A stretch of DNA of 18,051 bases from a bacterium (GTDB lineage Bacteria > JAHJDO01), in assembly GCA_030611945.1 (NCBI GenBank), contig JAUWOV010000035.1, positions 1 to 18,051 on the forward strand, in the 5' to 3' direction. Position 1 is the stretch's first letter; each line of letters begins with the position of its first letter. Of this stretch, positions 8,757 to 16,539 are shown in pieces. Below the pieces are notes generated by a model. That model saw only the letters and a list, made by a program, of their open reading frames with translations, did no database searches and was not told where the DNA came from. Made by a program: the position numbers and the translations under genes.

Positions 8757-11468
8757 TTATGGAGTATCAATAATATGACTATCTTCTACACTATTGCCAT
8801 TGTCATCTGTTCCATACCATGTTTCTGTCATCTTATCTGGATGATAAGTTGTCCAAAACCATCTGTTATTTGCTGTAACCTGACCATTAGGGTTTATTCT
8901 GTTTGTGCCGAATTTAGCCACAGGATCATATTTGGGAGATTCACACCCTATTGATTGAAAACATCTTATTCTGTGACTCAATGTAACTCCAACACCATTA
9001 CTCTCGGTTATTGTTAAATCATAATACCATCTATCTTGAGATGGATCATAATGCAGATTACTATAACTCGCGCTCAACTCAGCAACAACATCAACACAAA
9101 CCCCATTCTCGCAAATCTCATTAGTTCCGCAGATTGTTCCATCTGGGATATTAACGCAGTTCCCACTGCCATCACATTCCTTGCATATATCACAGAATGT
9201 TCCTGCTGGTGAGTATGTTCTTGCGCATCCTCCAAGGCTATCGCATAAAGCAGTAGCATCACAAACCCCTCCTTCGCATGTATAGACTGTTCCAGAGCAG
9301 GTTCCTCCTGAGCAAACATCATTATATGTGCAGGCATTATCATCATCACAGCTTGCGCCATTATTCAAAGGGCATGTTCCTCCGCAGCCATCAGGATTTC
9401 CTCCGCAAACAGAAGGGCAGGATGGCGCGCATCCCTCAATTATCTCTAGGTCATCAGAGGATATGTCATCTTCGCCATCAACACTGGCTTTAAAAAAATA
9501 CTGGTGAAATGGAAGCATGTAATCAACAGTTCTTTCAGCAGTCCATGTTGCTGTTGCTGATGTTCCTGCAAAAGTGCTGTAAACAGTTGTAATATCTGTG
9601 TCTTGGAAAATCCAGTTGCTTTCCCATATATCAAAGTCAACTGTCTTTCCATTGCATCCCTGGCTTCCCTCAACAGTCAGGGTAACACTCTCTCCCTCAG
9701 TAGCAGAGGTTCTGTCCCAATAAGCTGAATTTAGATTGCAGTCACATAATTCTCCTTCATCAACACTTCCATCGCAGTCATTGTCTGTTCCATCGCATAC
9801 TTCCAAAGCAGATGGATTTATTTCATTATTATTGTCATTGCAGTCAGTATTATCAATGATATAGCCTAATGGCGCTGCGCATGCCTCAATAGTATCCAAA
9901 GGATTCCCATAGCCGTCATTATCACTATCCCTGTAAAAAGCACTCATTAATCCTTCATCAATATTTCCATCGCAGTCATTATCCATATTATCGCATTTTG
10001 TCTCAACTGCTTCATAATCTTGGTTATATGATAAATAATCTATATCAGAGCATCCATGCCAGTTATTGTTTGCGCAGGTTTGCATGCTTTCTAAGCAAAC
10101 CCCATACTGCTTAGGGCAAGGCATTGTTTTGCCATTAACACAAGCCAAAACTTCAACATCAAAAGAGTCTGTTGCTGCTGCAATGCCGTCATCAGCTTTG
10201 ACATAAAATGTTTTGCTTCCTGAAAAATCAGCATTTACACTGCAATAAATGTATTTGTCACTGGTTATACTGCATTCAACAAAAGTTGCATCTCCTGCAG
10301 AATTGGAAAAAGTTCCATCATGGCTTGCTGATATTTCATACAAATAATCTTTAAAAACATCATTGTTTATTATATCTGCATCTGAAACATAGTGCCAGAC
10401 AGGATTACTAAAAGCATTGCTGCTTTCACCAGCTCCCATCCCTATTTCATCCGGCAGATTAAGTGTTAAGGGATCATCAGGCAAAGCATCTAATTCCTCC
10501 TGTGTCAGGTTTTCGCTTTCAGGGGTAACTCCCAGCCCAATGCTCTCAAAAGCATCCAGGCAGTTTTCTGACAAATCAAGGTCAAGGACATAGCTGATAA
10601 TGGTTTCTTCGCTGATGCTGTTAAAATGCCACACAATCAAAGGATCTGATAATATCTTAAAATAGTCATATTCACCTGTCATATTTTTTAAATAATCATT
10701 AAGATAATCAACGCATTCTTTAGGGATACTCTCAATAAGCTTGAAATTCTTTGCATTTCCCTTTATCAATATTTCTACAACAGTCTCTCCCGGCTTTTTC
10801 CCGCAGTTAAACCTTCTTGCTATCTTTACTTTTTTGCTTGTTTCCCTGAAAATCTCAATCTCTGTATCTATATCTCCCATTGGACCGCCAGCAGGGAGCT
10901 GCTTTGCATGTTCTATAATTTCTTTGGCAGTTTCCTCATCAAGCTCAACAACTTCAAAAGTGCAGTCATTTCCGCAGTCTGTGTTAGAAATCTCTGCTGA
11001 AGCTCCTTTCCCTGACATGTAAAGATTAAGAACTCCTCTTGAAGTGTCTGAGCAGACAAAATAAGGCTCTTTTAGCTCAATATTTCCTATGTAAGAGGAA
11101 CCAACAAGTTTTCCTTTCCTAATAAAAAAGGCATTTTCCCTGACACCGGTTTTTATAGAATCCTCAATAAACGGAAACTCATACAGAGACTTGAACGAAG
11201 CTTCCATGTCCCTGTCCAGGTCAATAAAAAAAATCCTGTCAATATCGCATGGAACCATAAGGCTCTTTTCGCGGACACTGTCAAACCTGGAATACATCTT
11301 CTCAACAGAATCTTTTAAGTCCTGCTCAAACAAGGTTAATTCACCTTGGCAGAAGGAGATTTTGGCTTTATCCAGATAGTTGGCTATAATTAAGAATCCT
11401 ATTATAGAGATAAGCGCTATCAGGACATAGAGAATTACACCTTGATAAGCCATTCCTCTTTTTTTCAT
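8757..11468 (-). CDS. Large anchored surface protein with MopE-type metal-binding motifs and Cys-rich repeats
   Basis: 903 residues. The N-terminus MKKRG followed by MAYQGVILYVLIALISIIGF is a single membrane anchor resembling a pilin-type (class III) signal. Residues about 35-330 form a mixed domain I cannot name. A cadherin/Ig-like beta domain spans about 360-445. Two MopE-type putative metal-binding motifs follow, KCDNMDNDCDGNIDEG (about 490) and VCDGTDNDCDGSVDEG (about 555), separated by a thrombospondin-3-like DSDNDGYGNP calcium loop. An Ig-like domain (about 580-675), a Cys-rich stretch of short disulfide repeats (about 680-800, e.g. NGASCDDDNACTYNDVCSGG) and a C-terminal beta domain complete it. 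It is transcribed after the 121-residue 3-TM gene, 21 nt apart. Its style is that of large surface proteins of DPANN archaea; that is an impression, not a search result. Confidence 0.85.
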   Translation of the reverse strand: MKKRGMAYQGVILYVLIALISIIGFLIIANYLDKAKISFCQGELTLFEQDLKDSVEKMYSRFDSVREKSLMVPCDIDRIFFIDLDRDMEASFKSLYEFPFIEDSIKTGVRENAFFIRKGKLVGSSYIGNIELKEPYFVCSDTSRGVLNLYMSGKGASAEISNTDCGNDCTFEVVELDEETAKEIIEHAKQLPAGGPMGDIDTEIEIFRETSKKVKIARRFNCGKKPGETVVEILIKGNAKNFKLIESIPKECVDYLNDYLKNMTGEYDYFKILSDPLIVWHFNSISEETIISYVLDLDLSENCLDAFESIGLGVTPESENLTQEELDALPDDPLTLNLPDEIGMGAGESSNAFSNPVWHYVSDADIINNDVFKDYLYEISASHDGTFSNSAGDATFVECSITSDKYIYCSVNADFSGSKTFYVKADDGIAAATDSFDVEVLACVNGKTMPCPKQYGVCLESMQTCANNNWHGCSDIDYLSYNQDYEAVETKCDNMDNDCDGNIDEGLMSAFYRDSDNDGYGNPLDTIEACAAPLGYIIDNTDCNDNNNEINPSALEVCDGTDNDCDGSVDEGELCDCNLNSAYWDRTSATEGESVTLTVEGSQGCNGKTVDFDIWESNWIFQDTDITTVYSTFAGTSATATWTAERTVDYMLPFHQYFFKASVDGEDDISSDDLEIIEGCAPSCPSVCGGNPDGCGGTCPLNNGASCDDDNACTYNDVCSGGTCSGTVYTCEGGVCDATALCDSLGGCARTYSPAGTFCDICKECDGSGNCVNIPDGTICGTNEICENGVCVDVVAELSASYSNLHYDPSQDRWYYDLTITESNGVGVTLSHRIRCFQSIGCESPKYDPVAKFGTNRINPNGQVTANNRWFWTTYHPDKMTETWYGTDDNGNSVEDSHIIDTP

Positions 11469-11966: not shown

Positions 11967-11995
11967 TTGACCCACCTTTCCTTGTGCGTTATAAT
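11967..11995 (+). promoter_or_regulatory. Sigma-70-type promoter for the 12027 block
   Basis: TTGACC at 11967-11972 and a consensus TATAAT at 11990-11995 are separated by exactly 17 nt. Transcription would start near 12002, about 25 nt before the ATG at 12027. It points away from the archaeal-style promoter about 80 nt to its left. A small GCATA/TATGC inverted repeat at 12001-12018 lies at the start site and could be an operator. Confidence 0.7.
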
Positions 11996-12026: not shown

Positions 12027-12377
12027 ATGAGCCAGACACTCTTATTAGGCAAACCAGTTCCTGTCAGAAGCCTTTGCTTTAGAAATGAGCTGGGAGAATG
12101 GCGCAGATACAGGGTTTGCGCTATGTGGGATTACTCAGCGGTAAAATTTACTCGCACACCAGCACAGGCTAATCTTGTAAAGGATGAAAATGGCAGGATT
12201 GGGGTAAAGATCACTGGCAGAGACAGTGGTTTAGTGAAAGTGGGAGCTAAAAGGGGTGTTTTTGATTCTTTGTTTGCTCCCTTCAATGCTCTGAGCAAGA
12301 AACCGAAGAATAATTTACTTGGACAAACCAAGCTCAGTTTGGTAGAAGAGGATGGAATGCTGATTGGGAGAGAGTAG
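12027..12377 (+). CDS. Unrecognised 116-residue protein
   Basis: First gene after the 11967 promoter. The product is basic and beta-rich, beginning MSQTLLLGKPVPVRSLCFRN, with ELGEWRRYRVCAMWDYSAV and GRIGVKITGRDSGLVKVGAK segments and no membrane helix or signal peptide. The ribosome site is weak (GCGGTCAAA before the ATG), and no alternative start upstream is better. No family recognised. It shares strand and orientation with the ATPase-nuclease gene 80 nt downstream but is separated by a second possible promoter, so co-function is not established. Confidence 0.6.
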   Translation: MSQTLLLGKPVPVRSLCFRNELGEWRRYRVCAMWDYSAVKFTRTPAQANLVKDENGRIGVKITGRDSGLVKVGAKRGVFDSLFAPFNALSKKPKNNLLGQTKLSLVEEDGMLIGRE

Positions 12378-12407
12378 ATTTTAAATGATTTGGAGACAAA
12401 AGATGTA

Positions 12408-12437
12408 TTGAAGGTTATTTTAAATATCGCCTATACA
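12408..12437 (+). promoter_or_regulatory. Possible second promoter before the ATPase-nuclease gene
   Basis: TTGAAG (12408-12413) and TATACA (12432-12437) are 18 nt apart in the 80-nt gap before the ATPase gene. The match is fair but the boxes are not consensus. Confidence 0.35.
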
Positions 12438-12457
12438 GACAAGAGAAGGAGATAGAA

Positions 12458-14173
12458 ATGCCAACATTTAAACCAGAGGTAAATGAAGTATCAGAGTTTT
12501 TGGAAATATCAAGTGATTTTGGGGACCCAAGAGAGATAATACGTGAAGCGATTAGTAATAGTTTTGACGCAAAAGCAACGGAGATTCGTATTTCTGCTAT
12601 AATTGATAGATCTACTGGAGAAGACGAAATTGTAATTACTATATCCGATAATGGCGAGGGTATGAGAGAAGAAGAATTGAAATTTTTCTTTGGATTGGGA
12701 TTTACTAATCGTTTAGAGTTAGATGAATTAGGTAGAAAAGTATCCGATGCCGTTGGTGAGAAAGGTCATGGAACAAAAATTTACTTCAATAGCAGGCGCA
12801 CTGAAGTCGAGACTATAAAAGAGGCAGAGCGCATTAGTGTATTTCTTGAGAATCCTAAAAAGAGTCTACGGCTAGGTAATCTTCCTGAGGTGGAGTATGA
12901 AGTAAATCCTACCGAATCTCAACATGGAACTAAGGTTATCATACGTGGCTATAACGATAATAATCAAGCAGGATTTAGTCATGAAGAACTCAAAGATTAC
13001 ATTTATTGGTTTACTCGATTTGGCTCTTTTGAAATGGAGGTAGACATAAAAAGGTATGAAAATGTGGTCATCTGGTTATCTGGTTTAGGTTGGAAAGATA
13101 TAGAAGGGGAACCTTTGAAATTTGGTCATCCTTTCTCTGAGGTCAACACGGATATTCGAAAATTAAAAAGTTCTGATAAAGTTTCACCTCTGGATTATTA
13201 TGTTGCTAGATGGTCGTTTTCTAATGAAGCTGTAATAGGTATTCCAGGCGCTTATATAGATTTTGTTTTTTACCTTGAAGGAGATAAAGCAAAGAGAGAA
13301 TATAATAAAATGATTCACGAGCGCAGGACTTATTGGCGTCCAGGACAATATAACGTTCAAGATCGCTATGGTTTATGGCTTTGTAAAGATTGTATTCCAA
13401 TAGAACGTCGTAATTCCTGGGTGGCGGAAAAGGGAGAGTGGACAAAATATCATGCATTTGTAAATTGCCAAGCGTTTCATTTGACCGCCAATCGTGGTGA
13501 TCTTGGAAATACTCCCCCACATATATTGGAAGCTGTTGAAAAAACAGTTAAAGAAATATTTGATAGAAGAATCAAACCATCTAAAGAATTTGAAAAATAT
13601 CAAGAAGAATTGGAAAAGGAACAGCTATATCAAAGTGCACAGAAGGAAGAAAAAGACTTTCAGCGAAGAAAAAAACTGACTTTGCAAAAGAACACAGTGA
13701 AACTGAAAAATATAGAACTTCTCGAACCTCGTCAGGAAAGTGGGGTCTTTAGCCTTGTATTACAATTATTGGCGCTTGAGCCAGGTCTCTTTGACTTTAA
13801 AGTAATTGACTATGACACTTCAATTGGATATGACCTTTTGGTCACTAAAGATTATGCACTGGACTTGAATAGAGCAGCGTTGAGGTTTGTAGAGATAAAA
13901 CATGAGTTAAAACGAGACTTCAATCATTCCTTTAAGAAACTAGCGGCAGTAATCTGTTGGGACACCAAGCTTTCGAATGATGATGAAGTAATTGATCTAA
14001 CAGGGGCTAAGAGGACTATGAAAATAACTCCTCCAGATGAAAAAGCTGAGAATAGTTGCACAAAGTATATGTTAGTCTCTGTTACAGAATTGCATAATAT
14101 CGAGGTCTTCGTGCTAAAGGATTTTCTTCGTGAACGTCTCAAACTAGAGTTCAGACCCAGAAGTAGTGGGTAA
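12458..14173 (+). CDS. Bergerat-fold (GHKL) ATPase with C-terminal PD-(D/E)xK-like nuclease domain
   Basis: 571 residues. The N-terminal Hsp90/MutL/MORC-type ATPase has its full motif set: N box REAISNSFDA (Glu30 general base, Asn34), G1 box DNGEGM (64-69) and G2 box GEKGHGTKI (100-108) as ATP lid. A transducer-like middle region follows, with a CxxC-lacking but conserved-looking DRYGLWLCKDCIPIERR near 305-320, then a charged coiled coil (about 375-420). The C-terminal domain (about 428-505) has Asp459 in SIGYDLLV and Glu479-x-Lys481 in RFVEIKHELKRDFNHSFKKL, the arrangement of a PD-(D/E)xK nuclease. ATP-driven clamp closure on DNA with cleavage is inferred. AAGGAGA at 12446-12452 supports the start. 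A zincin gene follows after 63 nt. Not a histidine kinase: no H box or receiver. Confidence 0.85.
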   Translation: MPTFKPEVNEVSEFLEISSDFGDPREIIREAISNSFDAKATEIRISAIIDRSTGEDEIVITISDNGEGMREEELKFFFGLGFTNRLELDELGRKVSDAVGEKGHGTKIYFNSRRTEVETIKEAERISVFLENPKKSLRLGNLPEVEYEVNPTESQHGTKVIIRGYNDNNQAGFSHEELKDYIYWFTRFGSFEMEVDIKRYENVVIWLSGLGWKDIEGEPLKFGHPFSEVNTDIRKLKSSDKVSPLDYYVARWSFSNEAVIGIPGAYIDFVFYLEGDKAKREYNKMIHERRTYWRPGQYNVQDRYGLWLCKDCIPIERRNSWVAEKGEWTKYHAFVNCQAFHLTANRGDLGNTPPHILEAVEKTVKEIFDRRIKPSKEFEKYQEELEKEQLYQSAQKEEKDFQRRKKLTLQKNTVKLKNIELLEPRQESGVFSLVLQLLALEPGLFDFKVIDYDTSIGYDLLVTKDYALDLNRAALRFVEIKHELKRDFNHSFKKLAAVICWDTKLSNDDEVIDLTGAKRTMKITPPDEKAENSCTKYMLVSVTELHNIEVFVLKDFLRERLKLEFRPRSSG

Positions 14174-14208
14174 AATAGTAGCAATCCCAAACTGCTGGGA
14201 ATGGCGAG

Positions 14209-14234
14209 TCTCCTGTTTCCCTAAAGGGAGGAGA
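14209..14234 (+). promoter_or_regulatory. Hairpin that can mask the zincin gene's ribosome site
   Basis: TCTCCT (14209-14214) pairs perfectly with AGGAGA (14229-14234), and CCC (14219-14221) with GGG (14226-14228), with a 4-nt bulge on one side. The right arm is the Shine-Dalgarno sequence of the gene starting at 14237. The helix would hide the ribosome site unless opened by protein, a trans RNA or ribosomes. A further TCCCA/TGGGA hairpin lies just upstream (14185-14200). Confidence 0.5.
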
Positions 14235-14236
14235 TA

Positions 14237-14956
14237 ATGGCTACCATAATTTTAGAAAACAAAGCACAAATTGATCTTGACCAAGACTTTTTAGCGCGTG
14301 TCAAGAATGAGGCAAATCTTCCTCCAGGGAGAGTGCTTTTAATTTTTCATGATGGGCCATTTCTGAAAGGTGCTCTTGGTGGATGTATACCAAAGTCTCT
14401 TCTTAATTACGCTCGCAATGAAAGAGTCCTTAATCCTTTTATTGAACGACGCTGGGATTGTAGTATTGTAATCTCGCAGAAGGCTTGCCTTTTGAAAGAA
14501 CAATATCCAGCATACTTTACATATCTTCTTGGTCATGAGCTTGGACATGCTTATGTATGTCTATCAGACGTGTCCTTGCACATCCATTATTGTCTCATTC
14601 AAGAATTTATTAAAGAGGCATCTGGTAATAAAATAACACAGTGGCATGAACTACCACATGAGGTGTGTTTTGATCAATTTGGCATATATATTGTTGAACA
14701 TTTGTTTTCCCGTGAAAAACTAAATATGGAGATAACACAAATGCTTAAGATGCCAAATTGCAAGGCTCGTATGCGTCTTGAGGCAATGTTGTCTTTACCT
14801 GGTTCTAATGATTTTGTCGACTTAAGAAACAACTTAATTAATTTTTCAAGGCCATATAAAGATAAATTAATAGAACTTTGGGAAAAAGATGCTGTGGAAA
14901 CAAGCGACGATTCGCTCGCTAAGTTGATAGTTAATCATGACGATTTATTCAGGTGA
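14237..14956 (+). CDS. HExxH zincin-type metalloprotease-like protein
   Basis: 239 residues with the zinc protease helix LLGHELGHAYVCLS, where His100-Glu101 and His104 form HExxH. The third ligand is probably Glu142 or Asp146 in LPHEVCFDQFGIYIVEHLFS about 40 residues on, an arrangement like the IrrE/ImmA-type zincins, though no helix-turn-helix domain is fused. The first 90 residues hold a beta-rich domain with GRVLLIFHDGPFLKGALGG. There is no signal peptide, so it acts inside the cell. The ribosome site GGGAGGAGA is strong but lies in a hairpin. Same-strand position 63 nt after the ATPase-nuclease makes a functional pair plausible; the substrate is unknown and could be a regulator or the ATPase itself. 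Confidence 0.78.
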   Translation: MATIILENKAQIDLDQDFLARVKNEANLPPGRVLLIFHDGPFLKGALGGCIPKSLLNYARNERVLNPFIERRWDCSIVISQKACLLKEQYPAYFTYLLGHELGHAYVCLSDVSLHIHYCLIQEFIKEASGNKITQWHELPHEVCFDQFGIYIVEHLFSREKLNMEITQMLKMPNCKARMRLEAMLSLPGSNDFVDLRNNLINFSRPYKDKLIELWEKDAVETSDDSLAKLIVNHDDLFR

Positions 14957-15036
14957 CTTGTTCACTTGTAGTTTCGTCTAACACAACTTTAATGTTATAT
15001 AAAATTGCCGTCTATTAAACGAGAGAAGGAGTTGAC

Positions 15037-15306
15037 ATGACAGAAATCAAAATTGAAAAGCCATTAGAGGAAAAGCTGAAAGAGCTGGAAATAGATAAAT
15101 GGAGCCTGTGGGAGTGTGAACCAAGCACATTTGAATGGTCTTATGGCTCAAATGAGGATTGTTATATTTTAGAGGGCAGGGCTAAAGTAAAAACTGCATC
15201 AGAAGAAGTTGAGTTTGGAAAAGGCAACCTGGTCCAATTCCCTAAAGGACTCAAGTGTACATGGATAGTTATTGAAAGGATTAAGAAGGTATATAATCTT
15301 TATTGA
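15037..15306 (+). CDS. Small cupin-domain protein (DUF861/EutQ-like)
   Basis: An 89-residue single-domain cupin. The pattern W-S-L-WECEPSTFEWSYGSNED, then CYILEGRAKVKTASEEVEFG and KGNLVQFPKGLKCTWIVIER is the classic small cupin_3 (DUF861) layout with the two beta-barrel motifs. These proteins bind small ligands or metals; many have no assigned reaction. One of the usual metal-ligand positions before YILEG reads Asp-Cys rather than Glu-x-x, so metal binding is uncertain. AAGGAG at 15026-15031 lies 5 nt before the ATG. It is 80 nt after the zincin gene and such proteins are common housekeeping stand-alones, so its presence between zincin and sensor genes may be incidental. Confidence 0.87.
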   Translation: MTEIKIEKPLEEKLKELEIDKWSLWECEPSTFEWSYGSNEDCYILEGRAKVKTASEEVEFGKGNLVQFPKGLKCTWIVIERIKKVYNLY

Positions 15307-15531: not shown

Positions 15532-16539
15532 ATGGCTTCATATGAGGGAGCTGAGTTTTATGAAAAATTTCTGACAAAAATCCCTTCATATTTTACGGGA
15601 AAAGCGTGGAACAGTATTGAGCGAATCGTACATTTAACAGCAAGTATACTTGCCATACTAATACCTATTATTATTTGGAAGTTTTCTCTTTCTGCCGATG
15701 ACATTCTTGCTTTAATAGCCATTATAACTCTTGGTTGCCTTGCTAGTATATTTGCCCTTCTTTTTATTATTGAAGAATACAGATTGTCATCGAAAGCACG
15801 ATATGCTGAAGCAATGAGTTCCCTCCATATGTGCATACATATTATTCGAGATATTCATTATAATTTAAACAAGCATAATATTTCTGATAATGATAGGTTT
15901 AATGACCTTTCTTTGTCTTTATGGGCATTGGCTCGATGTTTTTCTCTTACTAAAGCTGTCAATTGTCGGGTTTGTATAAAAAACATTGGTATTGACGAAG
16001 GGGTTTTAAAAGCAAAGAATCTTCATTCTCTTACTGATGAGGAAAGACTTAAATATATGTATGTTGAAACTTTATGTCGCGATATGGAAACACATAGGAC
16101 GGGTGCATTTAAAGACGATGGGGATTATAAACATCACACTATAGGGGGAAATACAGATTTTCGAAAGATATTTCTTATGGATTATGACGCAAAACGTTAT
16201 TGGTATTCTAATGACATTAGAGCTTTGGGACATCATTATCAAAACACACGACTTACTGAAGCTAAAAATTATAAAGACCTTGATTATAGAAGTGCTCTTG
16301 TTTTACCTATAAGAAAAACTACTTCAGGTATACAACACGAAAAACAGAAAGCACATAATCAGGATATCATCGGATTTCTTTGTATAGACTCAAAAACCAG
16401 AGGGATTTTCGATTATCGATATGATCCAGAGTTAGCAGCAGTTGTTGCTGACGCTTTATTTATTTTAATGCAAGATTGGTTCAAAATTTTACCAAAAACT
16501 ATTTCGAGAGAAAAAAAGGAGATATATGAAAAAGTTTAA
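15532..16539 (+). CDS. Two-TM membrane protein with a C-terminal GAF-like sensor domain
   Basis: 335 residues. Two membrane helices lie at about 32-50 and 57-81 (ILAILIPIIIWKF; LIAIITLGCLASIFALLFII) in a hairpin with both ends cytoplasmic. A helical linker (about 85-145) leads into a GAF-like domain whose last half is clear: RSALVLPIRKTT at 253-264 then DIIGFLCIDSKTRGIFDY at 278-295 and a closing helix ELAAVVADALFILMQ. GAF domains bind small ligands such as nucleotides. No kinase or cyclase follows, so this is a sensor-only or effector membrane protein, a layout often found in anti-phage and stress islands. GGAAAGAGAG precedes the ATG. Its 3' end overlaps the next ORF by 14 nt. AT content is visibly higher than in the pilus genes. 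Confidence 0.7.
   Translation: MASYEGAEFYEKFLTKIPSYFTGKAWNSIERIVHLTASILAILIPIIIWKFSLSADDILALIAIITLGCLASIFALLFIIEEYRLSSKARYAEAMSSLHMCIHIIRDIHYNLNKHNISDNDRFNDLSLSLWALARCFSLTKAVNCRVCIKNIGIDEGVLKAKNLHSLTDEERLKYMYVETLCRDMETHRTGAFKDDGDYKHHTIGGNTDFRKIFLMDYDAKRYWYSNDIRALGHHYQNTRLTEAKNYKDLDYRSALVLPIRKTTSGIQHEKQKAHNQDIIGFLCIDSKTRGIFDYRYDPELAAVVADALFILMQDWFKILPKTISREKKEIYEKV

Follow-up and report, generated by a model that had tools for sequence, protein, structure and literature searches.

What does a GHKL ATPase joined to a nuclease-like domain do in a bacterium, and does it act together with the HExxH protein encoded just behind it? The question is raised by a DNA stretch of 18,051 bp (the window), in which two ORFs follow each other on the forward strand, 12458-14173 (571 aa) and 14237-14956 (239 aa). 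A sequence-only reading had described them as an uncharacterised, defence-like module of an ATPase-nuclease and a zincin, close to a recombinase and a membrane GAF protein, and had suggested a sense-cut-release circuit. Both ORFs are present where it placed them. A promoter-like site (TTGACC-17-TATAAT, 11/12 to consensus) is found at 11967-11995, before a same-strand run that spans 12027-15306.

The first gene (12458-14173, +), defined by its ORF and by full-length relatives, encodes a GHKL (Bergerat) ATPase domain at residues 23-131 (12524-12850, +). The Pfam models HATPase_c_3, an HMM comparison that had been proposed for this protein, and HATPase_c both matched above cut-off (E = 1.9e-11 and 3.7e-10, respectively), and motif invariance supports the same assignment. 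The N, G1 and G2 motifs are complete, as had been claimed, and each named residue was confirmed (E30, N34, D37; D64-x-G66-x-G68; G100-EKGHG105). A middle (S5-type transducer) domain with an invariant lysine, K310, follows at about residues 204-337 (13067-13468, +; boundaries approximate). A long helical linker is predicted from secondary structure at residues 354-409 (13517-13684, +). The C-terminal end is a PD-(D/E)xK-like nuclease domain at residues 412-560 (13691-14137, +), recognised by a structure model, structural matches and residue invariance. The predicted nuclease residues are E427 (13736), D459 (13832) and E479-x-K481 (13892-13900), all on the forward strand.

Relatives of the ATPase-nuclease were collected from plasmids, bacterial genomes and viral contigs, and 13 bacterial members were aligned, i.e., the window protein and relatives from several phyla, one plasmid and two viral contigs. 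In the ATPase domain, E30, N34, D64, G66, G68, G100 and G105, and in the middle domain K310, are identical in 13/13. The same is true of the nuclease residues E427, D459, E479 and K481, so the Asp459 and Glu479-x-Lys481 signature that had been noticed in the window protein is shared by every aligned bacterial member. This invariance holds while overall identity to the window protein drops to 34%. The strongest argument for both active sites being in use is that their residues are conserved this far out, and, judged from the alignment, the named residues are more than chance. Pfam detects the GHKL domain in all 15 aligned members.

The predicted structures are in keeping with these assignments. 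A full-length model built from a 12-sequence alignment has a mean pLDDT of 81, and its residues 1-393 match the ATPase modules of Hsp90, MORC3, Topo VI-B and GyrB with Z of about 18-21. The isolated C-terminal domain was modelled with a pLDDT of 91.2 and a pTM of 0.87. Its elements run in the order helix-strand-strand-strand-strand. The helix starts at E427, D459 is located at core strand two and E479-x-K481 within core strand three; as modelled, this placement is as expected for PD-(D/E)xK enzymes. A Foldseek search with the nuclease domain gave no significant match, and a profile search against the PDB gave chance-level matches only. In a second look (VIA), every structural match had a Z below 5, and PD-(D/E)xK nucleases made up 24 of the 30 matches listed (by our own classification). 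The top match is NucS/EndoMS (Z 4.9, rmsd 2.9, 87 aligned). Other PD-(D/E)xK entries among those listed are NucC, SfsA, MspJI, DdmD, McrC, Ecl18kI, Bax1, Cap4, Hjc, SPARDA and I-Ssp6803I. For the model, such matches support a PD-(D/E)xK fold and not kinship with any one enzyme. The nuclease-like C-terminus that had been read from the sequence is thus borne out by a confident model and by mostly PD-(D/E)xK matches, each of them weak.

The second gene (14237-14956, +) is known from its ORF, and no relatives were detected. Its 239-aa product carries HELGH at residues 100-104 (14534-14548) and a second motif, HELPH, at residues 137-141 (14645-14659). Shuffled versions of the protein contain at least one HExxH in 2% of cases and two in 0.025%. 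The motif behind the zincin claim is therefore real, but the family identity did not hold up: the protein had no family match in Pfam (zincin profiles, up to E = 1), NCBIfam, PADLOC or PHROGs, and nothing similar was found in the PDB. Since no family profile matches, the label zincin reflects the motif alone. The comparison with COG2856/ImmA-type zincins likewise returned no zincin peptidase profile match.

Might the two genes nevertheless work as a circuit, the protease acting to switch or release the nuclease? They lie on the same strand with a gap of 63 bp, and an RBS-like GGAGGAG precedes the HExxH gene. This arrangement is compatible with co-transcription, but it is a single case. A tblastn of the HExxH gene against the related ATPase loci gave no match. 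Among predicted genes within 3.5 kb of the relatives, there is no HExxH except a HEAAH in an unrelated 410-aa ORF (L015). A search of ten host genomes produced one chance-level match (E = 0.13). There are no relatives in the four plasmid and two viral records of family members or in four genus mates, and another 695 genomes sampled from two phyla likewise yielded none. Plasmids, phages and viral contigs gave none either, though such blanks, those from genus mates and sampled genomes included, are weak evidence. A zinc metallopeptidase at one plasmid locus (L007) was considered as a counterpart and rejected as unrelated. No zincin relative stands beside any other family member, so the proposed ATPase-zincin module is not seen outside the window, and the sense-cut-release circuit loses its basis in co-occurrence. 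With no partner of this kind at other family loci, host genomes or records, and with no relative of the HExxH protein found in any collection searched, the two-gene circuit is very improbable. The HExxH gene is probably an unrelated neighbour.

The surroundings of the ATPase-nuclease gene vary by genome and are mainly housekeeping genes; most loci are not defence islands. Judged by gene neighbourhoods, the gene for the ATPase-nuclease travels alone. Neighbours of a defence or mobility type occur at three loci. In one (L013), the next gene encodes a TOTE conflict-system primase-helicase, with a SMEK-NTPase farther along; in another (L017), a Schlafen-type helicase lies about 2.3 kb from the family member; and in the third (L021), an integrase is directly upstream. 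These cases are telling, but few. The recombinase that had been described as nearby is real (Phage_integrase, E = 4e-25), but its gene ends 5.9 kb upstream. The putative membrane GAF protein (15532-16539) had no GAF match in a Pfam search. The window also encodes, at 8757-11468 on the reverse strand, a protein of 903 aa that has a hydrophobic helix at its N-terminus and contains metal-binding motifs of the MopE type (PF11617, 6.4e-10).

Near-full-length relatives share 62% identity with the window protein in Dehalococcoidia, 59% in Nitrospirae and about 34% in Nitrospinales and Clostridia. Overall, relatives were found in Chloroflexota, Nitrospirota, Nitrospinota, Bacteroidota and Bacillota, on one Burkholderiales plasmid and on two viral contigs. 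The family tree departs from taxonomy. The window protein groups with members from Chloroflexota and Nitrospirota, and the Burkholderiales plasmid member groups with a viral-contig member; cross-phylum grouping of this kind would be expected of lateral spread. Four genus mates have no relative of the ATPase-nuclease, one of them showing a weak, partial match to the ATPase domain only. No relative was found in the phage collection searched, nor in viral contigs when a single ATPase sequence was the query; a two-row alignment as query recovered relatives from the viral contigs. One viral contig (L020, 7980-9677) encodes a full-length member whose immediate downstream neighbour specifies a phage tail-sheath TIM-barrel domain, and, given this neighbour, phage may carry the enzyme. 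A second viral contig (L055, 6001-13206) encodes a distant relative in which the ExK lysine is replaced (VEIEY), adjoining large tyrosine-recombinase-like, PIN- and PHP-like genes (by eye). A Priestia megaterium plasmid (L007, 6294-9703) encodes a 740-aa protein that combines a divergent GHKL domain with the family's C-terminal nuclease domain, beside an AspBHI-N/HNH-like protein, TIR genes, dcm and SNF2 genes.

The architecture has been described before, in paraMORC3 proteins and in VcSduA. The paraMORC3 proteins combine GHKL and S5 domains with a fused C-terminal RE-fold domain bearing an E-D-ExK signature, are sporadically distributed, and include a subset that is standalone, without conserved neighbours (Iyer, Abhiman, Aravind 2008, PMC2292703). 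The window protein agrees in each of these respects with the published description, to which we likened it. Its ATP-binding motifs are complete, the fold of residues 1-390 places an S5 domain after the GHKL domain, and the RE-fold assignment has the invariant residues, the model and the weak structural matches behind it. The MORC-specific S5 motif GhXhhpXXRhl is absent from 15/15 members, as in paraMORC3. One difference lies in taxonomy: paraMORC3 was reported mainly from Proteobacteria and Bacteroidetes (PMC2292703), whereas the window family is found in several other phyla.

Iyer et al. propose functions outside restriction-modification (R-M) for standalone paraMORC3 (PMC2292703), and the enzyme might instead be a nuclease for repair or recombination that resembles MutL and, as an ATP-gated clamp, nicks damaged or mismatched DNA. 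MutL/PMS2 also couple a GHKL and S5 ATPase to a nuclease, the GHKL domain resembles that of MutL, and the best structural matches of the nuclease domain are the NucS/EndoMS mismatch endonucleases. However, the MutL nuclease differs in fold and motif, and its endonuclease motif, DQHA, is absent from the window protein. Membership in MutL itself was ruled out (full-length model, 30.9 bits vs 180). The patchy, laterally spread distribution, the absence from genus mates and the members on plasmid and viral contigs are also unlike core repair genes, and we regard a role in repair as unlikely.

The closest functionally tested analogue of the window protein is VcSduA, a GHKL-nuclease that protects against T1-like phages (2025 study, PMC12137116). 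Substitutions in its ATPase (E27A) and its nuclease (K557A) each abolish phage protection (PMC12137116). Both are single proteins with an N-terminal GHKL ATPase and a C-terminal PD-(D/E)xK nuclease, and by this analogy the window protein probably works like VcSduA. They differ in the nuclease, which in VcSduA is DUF4263/SduA_C, undetected in the window protein, and in the position of the catalytic lysine (557 vs 481). On account of its DUF4263 nuclease, VcSduA was assigned to Shedu type I-D (PMC12137116). The shared domain order, GHKL then PD-(D/E)xK, and the statement of the VcSduA authors that its architecture equates to paraMORC3 (PMC12137116) would also fit a divergent Shedu (SduA) type I-D immune nuclease with a VcSduA-like GHKL sensor. 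The profile comparisons argue against it: SduA_C (PF14082) matched none of the 15 family members at E up to 10, the window locus was unmatched in a genome search with SduA_C, and neither hmmsearch nor profile-profile comparison (hhalign) with 22 SduA_C domains found anything. Since SduA_C/DUF4263 is undetected, we do not file the window protein as Shedu, and a divergent member of that family seems quite unlikely. A canonical SduA_C (Shedu) protein, a 390-aa frame with E = 3.5e-21, is encoded in a genus mate (G003, contig C41; L024).

The N-terminal GHKL region is related to that of the BbrUII/HgiDII restriction enzymes (NF050001, E = 3.2e-9, residues 27-169). Membership in this family was ruled out, as the score (35.9 bits) fell short of the cut-off (550) and the remainder of the window protein was unmatched. 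No methyltransferase linked to the ATPase-nuclease was found in the window. Action together with an unlinked R-M system is possible. The window's genome holds a second GHKL gene on contig C101 (L072, 747-3630), encoding 540 aa with a Ymh-type-HEPN-like C-terminus (by eye). Next to it are genes for an endonuclease resembling Vsr and for a cytosine methyltransferase that is truncated (both by eye), and this locus looks like a classic MORC/paraMORC restriction-modification locus.

We read the gene as encoding a DNA nuclease of the paraMORC3 type that is gated by ATP, stands alone and moves laterally, most likely serving a restriction-like defence, and give this reading a probability of about 0.6. 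The analysis shows the domains, the conservation of their motifs, the predicted folds, the solitary setting and the patchy distribution. From its relatives we infer the dimer clamp, the cutting of DNA, the role in defence and the feature by which foreign DNA would be recognised. As in MutL, Hsp90, MORC and Topo VI-B, ATP binding to the Bergerat domain would close a dimer through the GHKL and middle domains. The closed clamp would hold DNA or a DNA-protein complex and, via the long helix, activate the C-terminal PD-(D/E)xK nuclease, which would then cut the DNA. The likely role would be to protect against invading DNA in a restriction-like manner, with no methyltransferase linked to the gene, and the downstream HExxH gene would stand outside this mechanism. 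The defence-like role that had been suggested is plausible, with VcSduA as its analogue, but the module and the circuit find no support. Structural Z values below 5 for the nuclease domain, the blank Foldseek search and the housekeeping neighbours count against this reading of the gene as a whole.

Relatives of the ATPase are also encoded on two haloarchaeal plasmids (L005, 7989-9545; L006, 7992-9548). They keep all the ATPase residues and have K/Q, H/N, A/S and H at the four nuclease positions, i.e., the nuclease residues are lost. In both plasmids, a TGT-domain gene is immediately upstream, and none of the other plasmid records contains a relative of this TGT protein. Further genes of L006 specify large helicases, a PLD-like protein and a DUF6884 protein that matches, more weakly, PF03883, the DpdC family known from 7-deazaguanine DNA-modification systems. 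The gene content of L006 points to a 7-deazaguanine system of the Dpd kind that includes a GHKL subunit, and the TGT-paired loci look like 7-deazaguanine modification-restriction systems. Because these nuclease-dead relatives keep the clamp and pair it with a TGT-type base-exchange enzyme, the clamp might be a general sensor of foreign DNA. The bacterial enzyme could be an uncharacterised single-gene immune enzyme that parallels the GHKL-type Shedu with an unrelated nuclease lineage. We put forward both ideas, the general sensor and the parallel to Shedu, tentatively and consider them rather doubtful.

What had appeared as an orphan candidate module is now placed in a described class, one that spans several bacterial phyla with its active site unchanged. 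There are GHKL-gated nucleases whose nuclease escapes current defence profiles (PADLOC, SduA_C), and defence surveys that use profiles blind to this domain miss such enzymes. Through the nuclease-dead haloarchaeal relatives, a connection of GHKL clamps with DNA base modification can be put to the test.
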